Source: Crossiella sp. CA-258035
GTDB lineage: Bacteria; Actinomycetota; Actinomycetes; Mycobacteriales; Pseudonocardiaceae
Direction of reading: 5' to 3'
Length of the DNA: 64,000 bases
Assembly: GCF_030064675.1 (NCBI RefSeq)
Contig: NZ_CP116413.1
Location: forward strand, 7,283,501 to 7,347,500
Of this stretch, positions 6,036-13,033 are shown piece after piece (position 1 is the stretch's first letter; each line of letters starts with the position of its first letter). The notes beneath the pieces were generated by a model. It saw only the letters and a list, made by a program, of their open reading frames with translations, was not told where the DNA came from and made no database searches. The position numbers and the translations under genes are program-made.

Positions 6036-6416
6036 TCACCAGGCATGCCAGCGTGCGCCGTGCCGGTGCGGAGCGACTGTAACGTCCACTGTGGACAGTT
6101 TGTCGGCGTGCAGCCGTCCGCCCGCGTTCACCTCGCGCAGCACCGTGCCGAGGGCGCGGCGCAGGACCCGGCGGGAGCGTCGCTCCGAGATGCGGGCCAG
6201 CCGGGCGATTTCTCGGTTTCCGTTGTAGGCACGGGGAAACGAGTGGATGACGACGGCACGTCGATGCGCGACGGGCCGAGGCCGACGTCCCTGGTTCTGG
6301 GCCTCGGCGAGGATCGCCGCGCTGTAGCGCAGGTCGGTGAGGACGACCGCGCGCCAAGCCGTGCGGTGCTCGGTCTGGGCGCGTGCGGACGTGATGTGCG
6401 CAGCGGTGCGGGACAT
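6036..6416 (-). CDS. small basic protein with possible helix-turn-helix
   Basis: 126 residues from ATG 6416 with GGGAG 6 nt upstream (a GTG 18 nt further up is possible). Not recognised as a named family. It is strongly basic. A segment around GNREIARLARISERRSRRVL reads like a helix-turn-helix, followed by a conserved-looking ALGTVLREVNAGGRLHADKL end. DNA binding is inference. A perfect 8-bp hairpin (6436-6456) lies just upstream, and the palindrome GTCCACTGTGGAC (6084-6096) is embedded near the C-terminal codons as Ser-Thr-Val-Asp. Confidence 0.6.
   Translation of the reverse strand: MSRTAAHITSARAQTEHRTAWRAVVLTDLRYSAAILAEAQNQGRRPRPVAHRRAVVIHSFPRAYNGNREIARLARISERRSRRVLRRALGTVLREVNAGGRLHADKLSTVDVTVAPHRHGARWHAW
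6084..6096. repeat. GTCCACWGTGGAC palindrome, copy 3 (coding)
   Basis: Perfect copy inside the 6036-6416 gene. On the coding strand it reads TCC ACA GTG GAC (Ser-Thr-Val-Asp), using ACA, a rare codon in this GC-rich window. Confidence 0.85.
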
Positions 6417-6435
6417 GGGGGCTCCCAGGTGCACA

Positions 6436-6456
6436 CCGCCAGGTATCTCCTGGCGG
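6436..6456 (-). promoter_or_regulatory. 8-bp inverted repeat upstream of the 6036-6416 gene
   Basis: CCGCCAGG-TATCT-CCTGGCGG is a perfect inverted repeat with a 5-nt spacer, beginning 20 nt upstream of the chosen ATG. It could be an operator for the encoded HTH-like protein, or an RNA hairpin that hides the alternative upstream ribosome binding site. No function is shown. Confidence 0.5.
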
Positions 6457-6876
6457 AGCTACCTGAAGCCGAGGGGGCCGGACTTCCGCATCGCGTTCAT
6501 GGGGTCGACGCTAATCGATGGGCGGGGCTGGTGGGGCGAGTTGTCCACAGGCCCCGGAGTGCGGTGGCGAGGTGGTTGGCCGCGATCCGCGCGCCTCCTG
6601 GCGAACGCGCTTCGACCTCGGCGCGCACAACCTCCGCCGGGGTGTCGACGGACGGGCAGGTTCGTCACCGGCTGCGGTCTCGGCCATCGAATCTGGGCAG
6701 CCAACCGCCGACCCGTGTTCGCCATGAGTGGCGAACTGGCCGGGCGGTGGCGGTGTCCGCACCGGTGACAGCTCACGGTTCCATGCGGGCATACTCGAAC
6801 CCTGCCGCCGAGAACAGCGTCAAGGATCGGACCGTGGTCCGATGTCGGCGAGCCGAACTCCGGTTACGGTCCTGAG
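6457..6876. other. gene-poor divergent intergenic region
   Basis: About 420 nt between the divergent small HTH-like gene and the histidine kinase. Overlapping open frames here have no recognisable product or ribosome binding site. The region should hold the promoter of the two-component operon, but no clear -35/-10 element was identified. Confidence 0.45.
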
Positions 6877-8220
6877 GTGTCGGTGTCCTGGATCCCGCGC
6901 TTCGGGTCGCGAGCTCTGTTGGTCGTCGACGGCCTGGTGGCGATTGCCGTGGTGATCGTGACCGGGCTGCGGACGAGCTCCAGCGCCATGCCGTTCGGTG
7001 GTGCGGTCACAGGCTGGGTGCTGGCCGTGGCCGTGGGCACACCGTTGGCAGTGCGGTGGTGGCGGCCGACGGTGGTGTTCGGGCTGGTGCTCGGCGCTGC
7101 TGGAGTGGCGATCGCGATCGGGGTCGCCGGAGAAGTCGTGGTGCTGGCGGTGGCGTACGCGCTGTATCCGGTGGCGCTGGGTTGCCCGGCTCGGCAGGGA
7201 GTTGGGGCGATGGCTGACGCCGGGTGGCGTCTGGCCGCTGACTCGGCACGGCAACGGACGGTGTTGTCAGGCGTCCCGGCAGGACCGCGGGCGACGGGCT
7301 CGGGGCACGTCGCACTGCGACGGCCGACGGACTCGGAGCCGCTGCCGCGATCACGGCCGCAGCCGGCGACTGTGCCGACCGGCTCGGCGCGGCGAGCGGC
7401 TGTGGTGCTGGCGGTCGCGCTCGGTGTGGTCACCGGTGCTGGGCTCGTCAGCGCGATCGGGCCGGTGGTCAGCGTGCCTGGAGTGGAGTCGTTCAGTCAG
7501 ACGCCGGTGAGCGCGTCGCTCTACTCCTGGGTGGTGCTGGGCTCGAGTTGGGCGCTGGCGCGAGCGGTCCGGGTCCGACGGGATCACGCCGCACAGGTCG
7601 CGGAGCTGGTGGCGCGGCGGGCGGTGGTGGCCGAGCGGTTGCGGATCGCCAGGGACATCCATGACGTGGTGGGGCACAACCTGAGCCTGATCGCGTTGCG
7701 GGCCGCGGTCGCGAACCACCTCGCGGACGACGGTCGGACCGCGCTCACCGAGATTGAGGCGATCAGTCGGCGGGCGCTGGCCGACGTGCGGTCGGTGCTG
7801 GGCGCGGTGCGCGATCCGGATGATCCGGAGCCGGGTGCGGCGACGCTGGACCAGCTGATCGCGGACAGCAGGGCGGCCGGGCTGGAGGTCGAGTTCTCGG
7901 CGGTCAACCTGACCGTGGCGCCCGAGGCGGTTCGGGTTTCGGCTTACCGGATCGTGCAGGAGGCGCTGACCAACGTGGTGCGGCACGCTCGGACCAAGCG
8001 GTGCCGGGTGCGGCTGGCCGTGGAGAAGGAGGTTGTGCTGGTCGAGATCACGGACGACGGTCCGGCTCGGGGGCCGATGGGGCCGCCGGGGCAGGGACTG
8101 GTCGGCATGCGAGAACGGGCCGCGCTGCACCAGGGCAGCGTGGTGGCTGGGCCGCGGCCGGAGGGCGGGTTCGCGGTGCGGGCCCGGTTGCCACTGCGTC
8201 CGGGAGACGGCGATGAGTGA
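6877..8220 (+). CDS. HisKA_3 sensor histidine kinase (NarL-type pair)
   Basis: 447 residues from GTG 6877. The first ~200 residues hold several transmembrane segments (LLVVDGLVAIAVVIVTGL, AVTGWVLAVAVGTPLAV, a Val/Ala-rich third and fourth, and VVLAVALGVVTGAGLVSAIG), with a low-complexity cytoplasmic insertion between. A HisKA_3 dimerisation helix follows, with the phosphoacceptor His at about residue 262 in ARDIHDVVGH. The HATPase domain shows an N box (RIVQEALTNVVRHA) and G-rich loops (TDDGP, GQGLVGMRERAAL). It autophosphorylates and passes phosphate to the regulator encoded by the overlapping next gene. The stimulus is unknown; the adjacent reverse-strand hydrolase could be a target (inference). 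Confidence 0.92.
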   Translation: MSVSWIPRFGSRALLVVDGLVAIAVVIVTGLRTSSSAMPFGGAVTGWVLAVAVGTPLAVRWWRPTVVFGLVLGAAGVAIAIGVAGEVVVLAVAYALYPVALGCPARQGVGAMADAGWRLAADSARQRTVLSGVPAGPRATGSGHVALRRPTDSEPLPRSRPQPATVPTGSARRAAVVLAVALGVVTGAGLVSAIGPVVSVPGVESFSQTPVSASLYSWVVLGSSWALARAVRVRRDHAAQVAELVARRAVVAERLRIARDIHDVVGHNLSLIALRAAVANHLADDGRTALTEIEAISRRALADVRSVLGAVRDPDDPEPGAATLDQLIADSRAAGLEVEFSAVNLTVAPEAVRVSAYRIVQEALTNVVRHARTKRCRVRLAVEKEVVLVEITDDGPARGPMGPPGQGLVGMRERAALHQGSVVAGPRPEGGFAVRARLPLRPGDGDE

Positions 8221-8866
8221 GCCGATCCGGGTGCTGCTGGCCGACGACGAGCCGATGCTGCGCGACACCCTGGGACAGTTGCTCGCCTCCGCACCGGATC
8301 TGGACGTGGTGGGGGCGGCGGAGAACGGACAGGTCGCGATCGACCTGCTCGACGAACGCGGCGCCGACCTGGTGCTGATGGACGTCCGGATGCCGGTGAT
8401 GGACGGCATCGAGGCGACCGCACGGATCGCCGCCCGTCCCGATGCCCCCCGGGTGCTGGTGCTGACCACCTTCAACCTCGACGACTACGTGTTCCGGGCG
8501 TTGCACGCGGGCGCGAGCGGGTTCCTGCTCAAGGACACCGCGCCGCGGGACCTGCTGGCCGGGATCCGGGTGGTCGCGGCCGGGGACGCGCTGCTGGCGC
8601 CGAGCATCACCCGCAAGCTCATCGCCGAGTACACCAGCGGCGCGCCCCGGCGGCGGCCGCTGCGGCGGCTCACCGGGGTGACCGACCGCGAGCGCGAGGT
8701 ACTGGAGCTGATCACCCAGGGCCTGTCCAACACCGAGATCCAGGAGAAGCTGTTCCTCAGCCGGGGCACGGTGAAGACCCACATCGGGCGGCTGCTGACC
8801 AAGCTCGGCGCACGGGACCGGGCCCAGTTGGTCATCGCGGGGTACGAGGCCGGGCTAGCGCCGTGA
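8213..8866 (+). CDS. NarL/FixJ-family response regulator
   Basis: 217 residues. ATG 8213 overlaps the kinase stop by 8 nt, so translation is probably coupled. Receiver domain: acidic pocket DDE at residues 11-13, phospho-acceptor Asp57 in LVLMDVRMPVMDG, and the switch region LTTFNLDDYVFRAL with Lys in FLLKDTAP. The C-terminal LuxR-type HTH is in TDREREVLELITQGLSNTEI and LSRGTVKTHIGRLLTKL. It is a transcription factor activated by the upstream kinase. Its last 35 nt overlap the 3' end of the convergent serine hydrolase gene. Confidence 0.94.
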   Translation: MSEPIRVLLADDEPMLRDTLGQLLASAPDLDVVGAAENGQVAIDLLDERGADLVLMDVRMPVMDGIEATARIAARPDAPRVLVLTTFNLDDYVFRALHAGASGFLLKDTAPRDLLAGIRVVAAGDALLAPSITRKLIAEYTSGAPRRRPLRRLTGVTDREREVLELITQGLSNTEIQEKLFLSRGTVKTHIGRLLTKLGARDRAQLVIAGYEAGLAP

Positions 8867-10745
8867 CCCTGGCCAGCACGACCAGCAGGCAGCCGAGGGT
8901 GGCCGTGGCCAGGAACAGCATGAACGTGGGGTACAGGTAGACGACCTGGAGCCAGGCCACGTCACGGCCGCGGAAGAGCAGGCCGACGATCCGGTGGACG
9001 GTCAGCAGCAGCACCAGCGGAAGCAGGTACGGGAGCAGGCGGAGGGCGATGCGTGCGCCGGTGGCGCGTGCCGAGGCTTGGCGGTGAGCAGGCGGCGGGC
9101 TGGCGTCCGCCGGTGCCTCGCGGTGCGCGGTAAGCGAATCGCGGGCAGCTGACGCTTCGCGGTGACCGATGGGCGGACCGATGTGGGCTGGCGTCCCGCG
9201 GCGAGCGGTGGGTGGACTGACGTCGGCTGATGCCTTGCGGTGACTGGCGGGCGGATTGCGGTCAGTCGATGCCTCGCGGTACCCGGCGGACGGGCCGATG
9301 TGGGCCGGTGTCTCGCGATGAGCGGTAAGTGGATTGCTGTCGGCTGGTGCCTCGGGGTGAGAGAGGGGCGGATTGCTGTCGGCCGGTGTCTCGCGATGAG
9401 CGGTGGGTGGATTGCTGTCGGCCGAGGTCTGGCCGTCGGCGGTGGTGGGTTCGTTGGTGCGTCCGGGGGTCCGGAGACGTCGGCGGGTGGGGCGGGGAGT
9501 TGTTCGGGCTTGGGTCCAGCGGTGGGCTCGGCGGAGGCCTTGGATGGTGAGCAGGGTGGTGGCGAGGGTGAGGGCGAGCAGGATCGCGTCGGTGAGCAGC
9601 AATGGGGTTGCCGGGGCGGGGAGGGGGCGGTTTTCCAGCAGGGTGATGAGGCGGCGGGCCAGGGCTGGGGCGTCGGCGTGGGTCATGCCGGTGTTGGCGA
9701 GGACCGCGATGCCGTGGCCGGTGCTGGGGAGCAGGGCCTGGTAGGCGGTAGCGGTGAACAGGTCGCCGCTGTGCGCGATGAGCGGGGCGCCGGAGTCGGT
9801 GCGGCCCAGCGACCAGCCCAGGGCGTAGTCGCCGGAGGCAGGGGACGGGGTGTGGGTGGCGGTGATGGTGGCGGGGGTGGCGATCTGGGCGCCGGTGGGG
9901 CCGCGGCCGTTGTTGTTCTGGGCGATCAACCAGGCAGCCAGGTCGTGGGCGGTGCTGAGCATGCCGCCGGAGCCGTTGCCGAAGGCCGGGGGTTCGGGCA
10001 GGGCGACGGGCAGGCCGAGGACCAGCAGGTGGCCGGAGGGGCTGGGCAGGTCCTTGGCGGTGTTGAGGGTGCGGGTGGTGGTCATGCCGAGTGGGGTGAG
10101 GATGTGGCTGCGCAGGTAGCTGTTGAAGTCCTGGCCGCTGACCACCTCGACCAACCGGGCGGCGACCTGGAAGTTCGGGTTGTGGTACTCCCAGTGGGTG
10201 CCGGGATCGGCGGCCAGGCGGGCTGAGCGCATCGAGGCCACGGACTCGGCCAGGGTGTTCGGCTGGGGGCGGGTGAAGGACGGGAAGGTGCGGTCGGACA
10301 GGCCGGAGGTCTGGTCGAGCAACTGGCGCACGGTGATCGACTCGACCCTGGGGTCGGCCATGGTGAACTCGGGCAGGTAGGCGCGCACCGGGCGGTCCAG
10401 GCCGACCCGGCCCGTTTCGGCCAGCTGGGCCACCGCGAGGGCGGTGAAGGACTTGCTCACCGAGGCCACCGGCATCGGGGTGTGCTCGGTGACCGGGTCG
10501 CCGGTCGCGGTGTGGCCGTAGCCGGCCGCGTGCAGGACCCGGTCGCGGTGGGTGATCGTCACCGCGGCGCCGGGCAGGCCGGTCGCGGCGAGGTAGTCGC
10601 GGACGACGGTGTCAATCCGGGCGGGATCGGCGGCGGCCGCGGCTGGGATCGGCAGGAGGGCGCTGATCAGCGTGGCTGTGGTGGCCAGGAGGAGGAGTCG
10701 GGCGGTCACGGGTGGAGTGTCCGCGGTGGCGGGGGCTGGGCGCAT
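8832..10745 (-). CDS. class C beta-lactamase-family serine hydrolase with repeat linker and membrane tail
   Basis: 637 residues from ATG 10745. GTG 10709 would start directly at the signal peptide (TARLLLLATTATLISALL). Residues ~40-370 are a beta-lactamase/D-aminopeptidase-like domain: SxxK nucleophile motif at S95-K98 (PVASVSKSF), YHN at the YxN position, and HSGD as the HxG-type third motif. The usual roles are a D,D-peptidase, esterase or lactamase acting outside the membrane. A hydrophobic segment follows, then about ten 13-residue repeats of the HRE-x-PADSNPPxA type (~435-560), then two C-terminal transmembrane helices. The long repeat linker is unusual for the family. It overlaps the response regulator gene by 35 nt. 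Confidence 0.85.
   Translation of the reverse strand: MRPAPATADTPPVTARLLLLATTATLISALLPIPAAAAADPARIDTVVRDYLAATGLPGAAVTITHRDRVLHAAGYGHTATGDPVTEHTPMPVASVSKSFTALAVAQLAETGRVGLDRPVRAYLPEFTMADPRVESITVRQLLDQTSGLSDRTFPSFTRPQPNTLAESVASMRSARLAADPGTHWEYHNPNFQVAARLVEVVSGQDFNSYLRSHILTPLGMTTTRTLNTAKDLPSPSGHLLVLGLPVALPEPPAFGNGSGGMLSTAHDLAAWLIAQNNNGRGPTGAQIATPATITATHTPSPASGDYALGWSLGRTDSGAPLIAHSGDLFTATAYQALLPSTGHGIAVLANTGMTHADAPALARRLITLLENRPLPAPATPLLLTDAILLALTLATTLLTIQGLRRAHRWTQARTTPRPTRRRLRTPGRTNEPTTADGQTSADSNPPTAHRETPADSNPPLSHPEAPADSNPLTAHRETPAHIGPSAGYREASTDRNPPASHRKASADVSPPTARRGTPAHIGPPIGHREASAARDSLTAHREAPADASPPPAHRQASARATGARIALRLLPYLLPLVLLLTVHRIVGLLFRGRDVAWLQVVYLYPTFMLFLATATLGCLLVVLARVTALARPRTPR
9068..9440 (-). 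repeat. 39-nt minisatellite, about 10 units, in coding sequence
   Basis: Imperfect 39-nt direct repeats within the serine hydrolase gene, each encoding 13 residues of the form [H/R/Y]-R-[E/G/K]-x-[P/S]-A-[D/H]-x-x-P-x-x-[A/S/G]. The unit length is a multiple of three, so copy-number changes keep the frame. The copies are diverged, so the array is not very recent. Confidence 0.85.
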
Positions 10746-10999
10746 CGGACCGGGATCCGATGTTGTCGGCGGGTGGGTCAGGGGGTTTGGCAGCGGCGCG
10801 CGGGTGGTCGACAGATCGTCCGGGGCTACTACCCGTGCCCGTCGGTCACAGGTGAATGGCCTCCGACGGCGGGTTCACCGCGGCCGGGTGCCCGAATGGT
10901 GCGGTCGGAAAGCCCGCCCTGGAATCGTGTGCGAGGTCCAGGCGCGGACGTGCGTGCAGAACAATGCGCGTCAGCTTCGAGTTGTCTTGTGAGGTAGTA
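10746..10999. other. intergenic region before the amber-split defence locus
   Basis: About 250 nt between divergently oriented genes (hydrolase leftward, unknown protein rightward). It should contain both promoters. No clear promoter, operator or RNA structure was recognised. Confidence 0.4.
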
Positions 11000-12286
11000 G
11001 TGGCATTGACGAACGCGAACATCCCGCTGGGACCGCTGGCGGGCGCTGAGCTGACGCTGTGGTGCGCCAAGTCCGGCCGACTCTGGCACGGCGACAGCAG
11101 CTGCCCCGATCTGAAGCAGCGAGCGCGCGAGGTCGTGCAAGTTCAGCCACGCAAGGGTTCATCGCAGACCTGGTGTCACCGGGCCGTGTGTTGCGTCCCG
11201 CCAGGACTGTTGGCGGACCATTTCGCCGCAGGGCAAGCGCTGGTCGAGTTCGACGGCCGCACCGACTCCCTCACCCAACAGCTGGCACAGGGCAAGATCG
11301 ACCTGACCGCGTTCGACCTCGTTGCCCTCCGGCAGGAGCACCCGAACGCGGTCAGGGCACCGCTGGCCAAAGTGTGGCGGCAATGCCGTGAGCGCAGAGA
11401 GGCGTTCCTCGCGGAACTCTCCGACGAGCTCACCAGTCGCCTTCCGATGATGGTCGCCGCCGCTTGGCTGCGCACCAACAAACGATCGAAGCAGCACGTC
11501 AAGCGACGCAAGTACGCCAGGTTCAAAGACCTCGCCGTACACAAGTTTGATCAAATAGACCGGCTCTCACCACAGGACGTGCGGGAACTGGCAGGTCGAC
11601 ACGTGCTGCCCAAGTTCCTCGGTCTAGTGAAGGATGGCGAACACCCCAGCTCGGCTGCGGCGAAAGTGTCAGCCGAGCAAGCGGAGTGGGCACGCCGGTC
11701 GGTCGAAGAGGCGCTGTCCGAGAGGCCAGAGCAAGCCGACGAGGGGTGGGCAACTCTCCCGGATAGAGTTCACGAAGCGTGGCAGAAGACGGTCCAGTTG
11801 TGGATCGGCCTCCTCAACGGAATCTGCACGGCGCACCACGGCGAGACCTTTGCCCTGTTCCACGAAGGTCAGCTTCCTTTGCCGACGTACGCGCTCCACC
11901 GCTTGTTTCCCTGTGCTCGCATCAGAACGACCACCTTCACCTGGCTCGCGGGCCCCATACCGGCGATCTTCCGGTTGTTCCTGCAAGAGCGCATTGTCGG
12001 CCTGATCGGGCTGGAAGTGGATCGCGAACATTCGCACGTCTACCGGGACAAGAGGCCCGCGTGGTTCCTCAAGAACCTGTTCACGTGGCATGGGTTTCCG
12101 GAGCTGGCAAAACATGTCGAGACGGTGGCGTCTGATCCACCTCGGAAGCCTCCGCTCGACACCAGCCACATCGACAACTACTTCCGCGGCTTCGGTTACG
12201 GCATACACGACAACGGGCTGATCGCCGCGCAATGCAACTATGCGGCCAGCATGGCGTGGCGGGATCGGCGGCTGCGCAAGGGATAG
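11000..12286 (+). CDS. unknown protein upstream of Shedu domain (possible N-terminal part of it)
   Basis: 428 residues from GTG 11000, which has GAGG 5 nt upstream; the frame opens earlier but without a better site. No family recognised. The N-terminal ~70 residues are Cys/His-rich (WCAKSGRLWHGDSSCP, then TWCHRAVCC), possibly metal-binding. The middle is helical and charged (KRSKQHVKRRKYARFKDLAV). The end is aromatic and well ordered (DTSHIDNYFRGFGYGIHDNG). It ends in a single TAG at 12284-12286, after which the same frame stays open through a Shedu nuclease domain. Base composition dips: 11521-11580 counts 30 G+C in 60, against ~70% in the flanks, suggesting transfer. Best guess is the sensor or partner portion of an anti-phage protein. 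Confidence 0.55.
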   Translation: MALTNANIPLGPLAGAELTLWCAKSGRLWHGDSSCPDLKQRAREVVQVQPRKGSSQTWCHRAVCCVPPGLLADHFAAGQALVEFDGRTDSLTQQLAQGKIDLTAFDLVALRQEHPNAVRAPLAKVWRQCRERREAFLAELSDELTSRLPMMVAAAWLRTNKRSKQHVKRRKYARFKDLAVHKFDQIDRLSPQDVRELAGRHVLPKFLGLVKDGEHPSSAAAKVSAEQAEWARRSVEEALSERPEQADEGWATLPDRVHEAWQKTVQLWIGLLNGICTAHHGETFALFHEGQLPLPTYALHRLFPCARIRTTTFTWLAGPIPAIFRLFLQERIVGLIGLEVDREHSHVYRDKRPAWFLKNLFTWHGFPELAKHVETVASDPPRKPPLDTSHIDNYFRGFGYGIHDNGLIAAQCNYAASMAWRDRRLRKG

Positions 12287-12349
12287 GGGTCCGAGGTCGA
12301 TGATGAGCCGGACGAACCCACCGTCCCCGTCGGAGATCTTCCCTCCGAG

Positions 12350-13033
12350 GTGGTTCGCCTGCTGGAGCAGGGAAATGCGGCCGAACTGCTGTCCGCGATC
12401 CAGCTGCACGTCCGGCGCGACCAGCTGGCCGCCGTACGCGAGGCGGTGCGAAAACCTGGCGGTCTGGAGCGGGACATCCAGGCCGCGCTGAGCAACGCGT
12501 GGTGGATGTTCGGCGGTGAGTTCGTCGGAGAAGCTCTGCGACGCCGTTTGGTCGACACGATCGAGCTCGACATCCCGCTGCTCCAGCCGGATGGCGTGCT
12601 GCACGTCGTAGAGCTGAAGCTGGCCGATGTCCCGGTCGTGCGACGCCATCGCAACGGCCTCATCGTCGCGGCCGTGGTGCACGAGGCGGTCGGCCAGACG
12701 ATGAACTACCTGACCCTGCTGGACGAGCGCCGCGCCGACCTGCTGGCCGAGTTCGGCATCGACACCCGCAGGGCGAGCGCGACCGTCGTCGTCGGCAGCC
12801 CCGACTTCCAGCAGGACCTGACCGCCGCGAAGATCCACGAGACGTTGCGCATCTTCAACAGCCATCTCAGCCGGGTGGAGGTCATCACCTACCAGCAGCT
12901 GCTCGACCGCGCGGAACGAGTGCTCGACCTGGTGGGAAAGCCTGACGGGATGCCCGCTTCATCGGCAGGCACCCCGTCAGGATCGTCGGGTCAGCTGCAC
13001 CCGGAGGTGGAGCCGCAGCCCTCGCACACGTAG
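12350..13033 (+). CDS. Shedu (SduA/DUF4263) anti-phage nuclease domain protein
   Basis: 227 residues from GTG 12350, the only usable start in frame, but with no ribosome binding site in front of it. The frame is continuous with the preceding gene across one TAG, and the 21 codons between also read as plausible protein. Core motifs match Shedu nucleases: WWMFGGEFVGEALRRRL, then LDIPLLQPDGVLHVVELK (PD-(D/E)xK-type Asp and E-x-K), a VHEAVGQTMNYL helix, a GIDTRRASATVVVGSP strand and an FNSHLSRVEVITY end. Known Shedu proteins nick or degrade DNA during phage infection. The last ~14 codons run into the 3' end of nrdJ on the other strand (43-nt overlap), suggesting the native C-terminus was lost or altered. 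It is either a coupled second gene or the C-terminal part of an amber-interrupted fusion. Confidence 0.78.
   Translation: MVRLLEQGNAAELLSAIQLHVRRDQLAAVREAVRKPGGLERDIQAALSNAWWMFGGEFVGEALRRRLVDTIELDIPLLQPDGVLHVVELKLADVPVVRRHRNGLIVAAVVHEAVGQTMNYLTLLDERRADLLAEFGIDTRRASATVVVGSPDFQQDLTAAKIHETLRIFNSHLSRVEVITYQQLLDRAERVLDLVGKPDGMPASSAGTPSGSSGQLHPEVEPQPSHT
12941..12981. terminator. hairpin between convergent Shedu and nrdJ genes
   Basis: CCTGACGGGATGCC (12941-12954) pairs with GGCACCCCGTCAGG (12968-12981), 14 bp with one G-T wobble and a 13-nt loop. It sits at the tail of the Shedu frame and just past the nrdJ stop, so it could serve as a bidirectional terminator. There is no T run. Confidence 0.5.

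Follow-up and report, generated by a model that had tools for sequence, protein, structure and literature searches.

The Shedu locus described here is probably a fused sensor-nuclease gene that was recently interrupted by a nonsense change, and probably no working full-length Shedu protein is made from it. It lies in a stretch of 64,000 nucleotides from Crossiella sp. CA-258035 (the window, numbered from its first letter), which is part of a 9.17-Mb genome assembled as one contig. A frame opening at GTG 11000 runs stop-free for 428 codons to the TAG at 12284-12286, resumes at 12287 and meets its next stop at TAG 13031-13033, and the first TAG is the sole internal stop or frame break in about 680 codons. 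An earlier reading made from the letters of this DNA (the sequence-only reading) had placed an unknown protein and a Shedu domain in one frame with only this TAG between them, which the ORF reading bore out. A relative from another genus of the same family, Pseudonocardiaceae (genome G243), carries both halves in one frame. In the window as in G243, the gene faces nrdJ, which codes for a class II ribonucleotide reductase, in convergent orientation. The features of the locus are as follows.

10778-12985, no strand: segment missing from a genome of the same species (G004), with matching DNA flanks on both sides
11000-12283, plus strand: N part, an open frame of 428 codons with GAGG 5 nt 5' of GTG 11000; 61% identity to G243
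12284-12286, plus strand: in-frame amber TAG interrupting the fusion; aligns gap-free with a sense codon in G243
12287-12349, plus strand: acidic linker of 21 codons, kept in G243, its second half also kept in Actinokineospora diospyrosa
12350-12990, plus strand: Shedu nuclease part (SduA C-terminal, PD-(D/E)XK), from matches to PF14082 and PDLC00401 and the conserved columns of alignment A5
12941-12981, no strand: inverted repeat resembling a terminator where the Shedu and nrdJ genes converge, from sequence and RNA folding
12991-13033, plus strand: frame end antisense to the nrdJ 3' end, probably non-native Shedu sequence

The uninterrupted relative and the frame across the TAG

An open frame says little by itself in this DNA, because the window has a G+C content of 71.5% and an antisense ORF of 398 aa (11669-12865) also crosses the TAG. 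The observation stands above chance because both halves have homology, a relative is uninterrupted and dN/dS against that relative is low. In G243, the frame spans 663 codons from stop to stop and codes for a fused protein of 652 residues from the GTG used, with no internal stop; the one TAG listed for G243 in the family scan is the terminal stop of the gene, which the alignment ran past. Identity between the window and G243 proteins is 61% over the N part and 79% over the Shedu part, and their alignment has no gap across the TAG and the linker. The codons between the TAG and GTG 12350 had been described as an acidic linker; identity to G243 over these 21 codons is 52%. The dN/dS ratio (NG86) was 0.27 in the N part and 0.16 in the Shedu part, with 0.42 over the 21 codons of the linker, and DNA identity was 71% in the N part, 82% in the Shedu part, and 87% in nrdJ. 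The sequence-only reading had offered a single large Shedu protein with a nonsense change as one explanation and had proposed a search for full-length homologues without the stop. One such homologue was found, and this uninterrupted G243 gene, adjoining the same nrdJ, supports that explanation. A second full-length fusion was not found on re-searching around G243 in 61 genomes. In a scan of 297 genomes of the family, at least 35 genomes including the window's own had a match to the Shedu part (best 9 candidates per genome), and at least 6 including its own had a match to the N part (best 5 candidates per genome).

The nrdJ ORF ends at 12991, and the Shedu frame overlaps that end in antisense for 43 nt, with some 13 codons up to its stop at 13031, whereas in G243 and A. 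diospyrosa the Shedu copy ends short of nrdJ. The segment 12991-13033 is probably not native Shedu sequence. The inverted repeat is stronger in G243, where RNA folding gave a z value of -6.6, against -2.5 for the window. In G243, an 18-bp hairpin (L049, 8940-8980) was observed between the convergent genes, with the Shedu stop codon at its tip.

The nuclease half and the N half

The downstream half matched Pfam PF14082 (E 6.3e-13, 49.6 bits, cut-off 27) and the PADLOC SduA model PDLC00401 (E 3.1e-79, 265 bits). The latter match covers positions 200-398 of a 404-position model, and therefore corresponds to the nuclease end of Shedu only. The D, E-x-K, Q, and N-Y positions that are invariant in the fused alignment A5 are retained in the window Shedu part. 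Among them, D522, E536, K538, and Q564 (G243 protein numbering), which we take to be catalytic, are all kept in the window row. A search of PDB sequences with the A5 profile found 8ps4, a Shedu effector protein (E 2.7e-5). In the structural model of the G243 protein, the Shedu part was confident (blocks mostly at pLDDT 82-98), and Foldseek ranks 1-9 were all Shedu entries (8ps4, 8ps5, 8ti9, 8ti8), with E-values of 2.5e-7 for 8ps4 and 1.6e-6 for 8ti9_C. A Shedu nuclease fold is accordingly predicted, as judged on the G243 model and not on the window's own part. A single uninterrupted protein with an N-terminal domain is present in G243, and in the window it is broken by the TAG.

The window copy also departs from R527, R/K539, and H598, residues shared by 15 or more of the 18 other Shedu proteins compared (R and K were counted together at position 539, which adjoins the motif residue K538). 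Judging from these residues, the protein could be functionally compromised even without the TAG. The three changes are no clear sign of decay, because at conserved columns G243 has 9 residues unseen in other Shedu proteins and the window 7; A. diospyrosa (G250) had 6. The Shedu alignment used for these conserved-column counts and for the three-way lineage count given below left out L001, L005, and L028-L032, with the Shedu frame of G250 added back, and A5 additionally left out L010, L017, L026, and L027.

The 428-residue N part had no family above the cut-off in Pfam, PADLOC, PHROG or NCBIfam. It carries a PLGP/H-C-C module at about residues 6-70, and the rest is mainly helical in a low-confidence model (mean pLDDT 40); a second model was mostly below pLDDT 50 in the N half, and neither model was used. 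The N part is likely the sensor or regulatory half of the fused Shedu protein, and its H and C positions may, to judge from their pattern, bind zinc. The sequence-only reading had proposed that this part may be a new sensor, which is a reasonable idea. The possibility that the 428 residues conceal a Shedu N domain of the usual kind was rejected, as comparison of the N-part alignment with the N domains of six usual Shedu proteins of the family (hhalign, A1 against A8) gave a probability of 0.1% (E 0.55). Several weaker candidates were also dropped. These were TLP-IPT (PDB sequence match, E 8e-5), whose match consisted of four weak repeats in a repetitive protein, and weak hits to TIGR01837 in NCBIfam (17 bits against a cut-off of 95), DUF2267 in Pfam (E 0.27), and PbeC in PADLOC (E 0.043, 11 bits). 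A phage or plasmid origin of the N part was likewise rejected, since tblastn against 50,697 phage records and 72,556 plasmid records gave no match and two scans of viral contigs found no relatives of it.

The N part did match an alignment of nine actinobacterial proteins (A7; hhalign 93.6%, E 2.1e-7) over positions 6-180. The A7 proteins come from ORFs 405-850 codons long that begin with the invariant pattern PLGP...LH....C...R...C-x-x-C (L060-L069, family f33). P, L, G, P, H, and C are invariant in both A1 and A7, and A1 does not preserve the final C-x-x-C in that form. Excluded from A7 were L070 and L071 (weak, with the look of unrelated genes), L065 (a near copy of L062), L072, and L059 (G914). 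No Pfam match was obtained for the four of the nine proteins scanned, and no PHROG or NCBIfam match for the two scanned. By this profile comparison, the first approximately 180 residues of the N part belong to an uncharacterised actinobacterial family that occurs as separate genes.

Wider searches with the A1 profile found at least 2 of 394 genomes in the class sample, including its own, the additional one being G914, and at least 1 of 397 genomes in the order sample, its own only among the matches listed (best 4 candidates per genome in both). In G914, an N-type gene immediately precedes a gene of 740 codons. Towards its end the latter has what reads by eye as a PD-(D/E)XK-like stretch, but searches of Pfam, PADLOC, NCBIfam and PDB sequences gave it no support. 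Profile A6 (five N-terminal rows, including G914) matched 14 places in 13 of 249 genomes of the G914 family, G914 included. In G015, the N-type protein is a separate gene that ends near the TAG position, on a short contig (3-5 kb), and in G094 (L048) a distant N-type gene lies in two frames and adjoins a divergent GmrSD-type restriction gene, also on a contig of 3-5 kb. An N-like match in G241 (33% over residues 13-88, A6 profile 4.9e-15, with a TAG inside) was set aside as a fragment.

States of the locus in related genomes and alternative readings of the TAG

The locus occurs in several other states. In A. diospyrosa (G250/L001, Pseudonocardiaceae), a gene remnant adjoining nrdJ retains the first approximately 25 N-part residues, some of the linker, and the Shedu part, but it has an internal deletion and its frame is broken; this frame matches from residue 10 of the linker-plus-Shedu query. 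The fusion is therefore not unique to G243, since this remnant keeps the N-part start together with parts of the linker and the Shedu domain. The same-species genome G004 lacks the segment listed above, its nrdJ product is 99% identical, and it had no match to either half among the matches listed (best 9 Shedu-part and 5 N-part candidates). Three further genomes (G001, G002, and G003) carry other genes at the same position according to rough gene calling, indicating that the site is a variable spot. In G001 (L053, about 6346-11401), an island with tyrosine-recombinase-like and ParA-like genes, recognised by eye, was seen beside nrdJ at the Shedu spot. The Shedu gene may have descended vertically and been lost in some lineages, or may have been transferred long ago. 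Decay of Shedu genes appears common in the family, because 6 of 29 other loci had lesions, namely frame changes in G250, L014, and L030, an internal loss in L028, a stop in L031, and a fragment in L032. L029, with the nuclease part only (229 codons), was scored as unbroken in this count, and draft-assembly errors may lie behind some of the six.

Lineage-specific changes bear on the age of the stop. With G015 as the outgroup, 18 N-part changes were found only in the window and 18 only in G243. With 18 other Shedu proteins as the outgroup, the Shedu part had 16 changes in the window and 16 in G243, with 3 ties, and a three-way count with G250 gave 12 against 12. The change counts of either half thus gave no sign of long relaxed evolution of the window copy. 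The stop looks recent relative to the split from G243, because neither half changed faster in the window than in G243.

Equal change rates in both halves would also fit two products that still work, and they are one of the points in favour of a split pair, in which the TAG gives an N half and a short Shedu protein started at GTG 12350, nearby or by reinitiation, which would together form a two-component system operating in trans. The whole nuclease core lies within the segment from 12350, GAGG precedes an in-frame CTG (12359) by 8 nt, and N-type genes exist separately in G015 and directly upstream of the large gene in G914. Further points weigh against the broken-gene reading itself: only one uninterrupted fused relative was found, and the distant N-part relatives in G015 and G094 end near the TAG position as separate genes, so that the family is no stranger to a split state. 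Against the split pair, GTG 12350 is the first in-frame ATG/GTG/TTG past the TAG, 63 nt downstream, and it has no Shine-Dalgarno match of at least 3 letters at 3-12 nt spacing. The sequence-only reading had likewise noted that this GTG lacks a ribosome binding site; the absence is weak evidence because such a match is also missing at 65.6% of the 1847 ATG/GTG sites on the plus strand of the window. No second genome with such a split was present among the matches listed for the 297 family genomes, and none of the searches of Pfam, PADLOC, NCBIfam and PDB sequences gave a match that would make the second gene of G914 a nuclease. There is weak support for a separate Shedu start, and we regard the split pair as unlikely. 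In a related scenario, the N half would belong to an unrecognised actinobacterial infection-sensor family that occurs as separate genes and was fused at least once to Shedu, and the stop would have recreated a pair working in trans; we consider this quite improbable.

Regulated readthrough, the other explanation offered by the sequence-only reading, found no support. Programmed amber readthrough would yield a short regulator and a long nuclease, and the frame is indeed open and conserved past the TAG. Nevertheless, G243, the sole relative spanning the site, has a sense codon there, and no CUA anticodon was found in 48 tRNA genes (tRNA family search and ARAGORN). TAG is moreover an ordinary stop here. 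It closes the same ORF, and among the other window ORFs from rough calling it closes 7 of 45 (9 of 47 in total, two of which are the Shedu locus's own TAGs). General readthrough of UAG is unlikely because the fused ORF would then not end at 13031, and we hold programmed readthrough to be very improbable. A sequencing or assembly error, with the gene in fact intact, would fit the TAG being the only break in the long frame and the conserved look of both halves. Errors in long reads are mostly indels, and the TAG is a substitution in a one-contig assembly; we regard an error as unlikely. Taken together, a fused gene recently cut by a nonsense change is the reading that we prefer. A side observation from the tRNA search is a 75-nt gene (G000:C1:965103-965176, L122) that ARAGORN called tRNA-SeC (tca), with an anticodon loop readable as nine bases.

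Proposed function and comparison with known Shedu systems

The intact gene would code for an N-terminal regulatory or sensor half of approximately 430 residues that bears a small Cys/His module, joined by an acidic linker to the Shedu nuclease at the C terminus. In the window genome, a single nonsense codon would end translation after the N half. According to a 2026 review, E. coli SduA binds DNA ends via an N-terminal clamp, end binding relieves autoinhibition of the nuclease, the N-terminal domains of Shedu proteins are diverse and are hypothesised to dictate specificity, and heterologous expression leads to toxicity (PMC12904381). By analogy with E. coli SduA, the approximately 430-residue N half of a G243-type protein might replace the usual clamp. 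The intact protein may work like other Shedu proteins, its N half sensing a cue of infection and setting the nuclease free. The main product of the window copy would then be the N half by itself, with nuclease made in small amounts at best, and the copy would be a recently disabled defence gene.

The newer part of the finding appears to be the N domain, which by sequence is unlike the usual Shedu N domains compared. No literature on a Shedu protein with such an N half was found among titles and the starts of abstracts, a search in which subscription literature was thinly covered. The locus and G243 together may represent Shedu with a different type of N half, tied to an uncharacterised actinobacterial family, and make it directly askable whether the PLGP/H-C-C-C family senses phage. 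They also present a defence gene caught decaying, with intact, interrupted, collapsed, and absent states across related genomes.

Compared with known Shedu (SduA; DUF4263/PF14082; E. coli SduA 8ps4 and 8ps5, Bacillus cereus Shedu 8ti8 and 8ti9), the G243 model has the same C-terminal nuclease fold, the motif positions are the same, and the intact relative has the single-gene layout, whereas the window copy is cut by the TAG. The nuclease part is 41-52% identical to that of Shedu proteins of the same family (L006-L027). In G119, another same-family Shedu genome, the Shedu match and nrdJ are on different contigs. The approximately 430-residue N half differs from usual Shedu in being unrelated to the N domains of six family Shedu proteins. 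It shares with the actinobacterial PLGP/H-C-C-C proteins (A7) an N-terminal PLGP...H...C...C module and the region that follows (positions 6-180). Unlike the N part, those proteins are encoded by separate genes in which no Shedu domain was seen.
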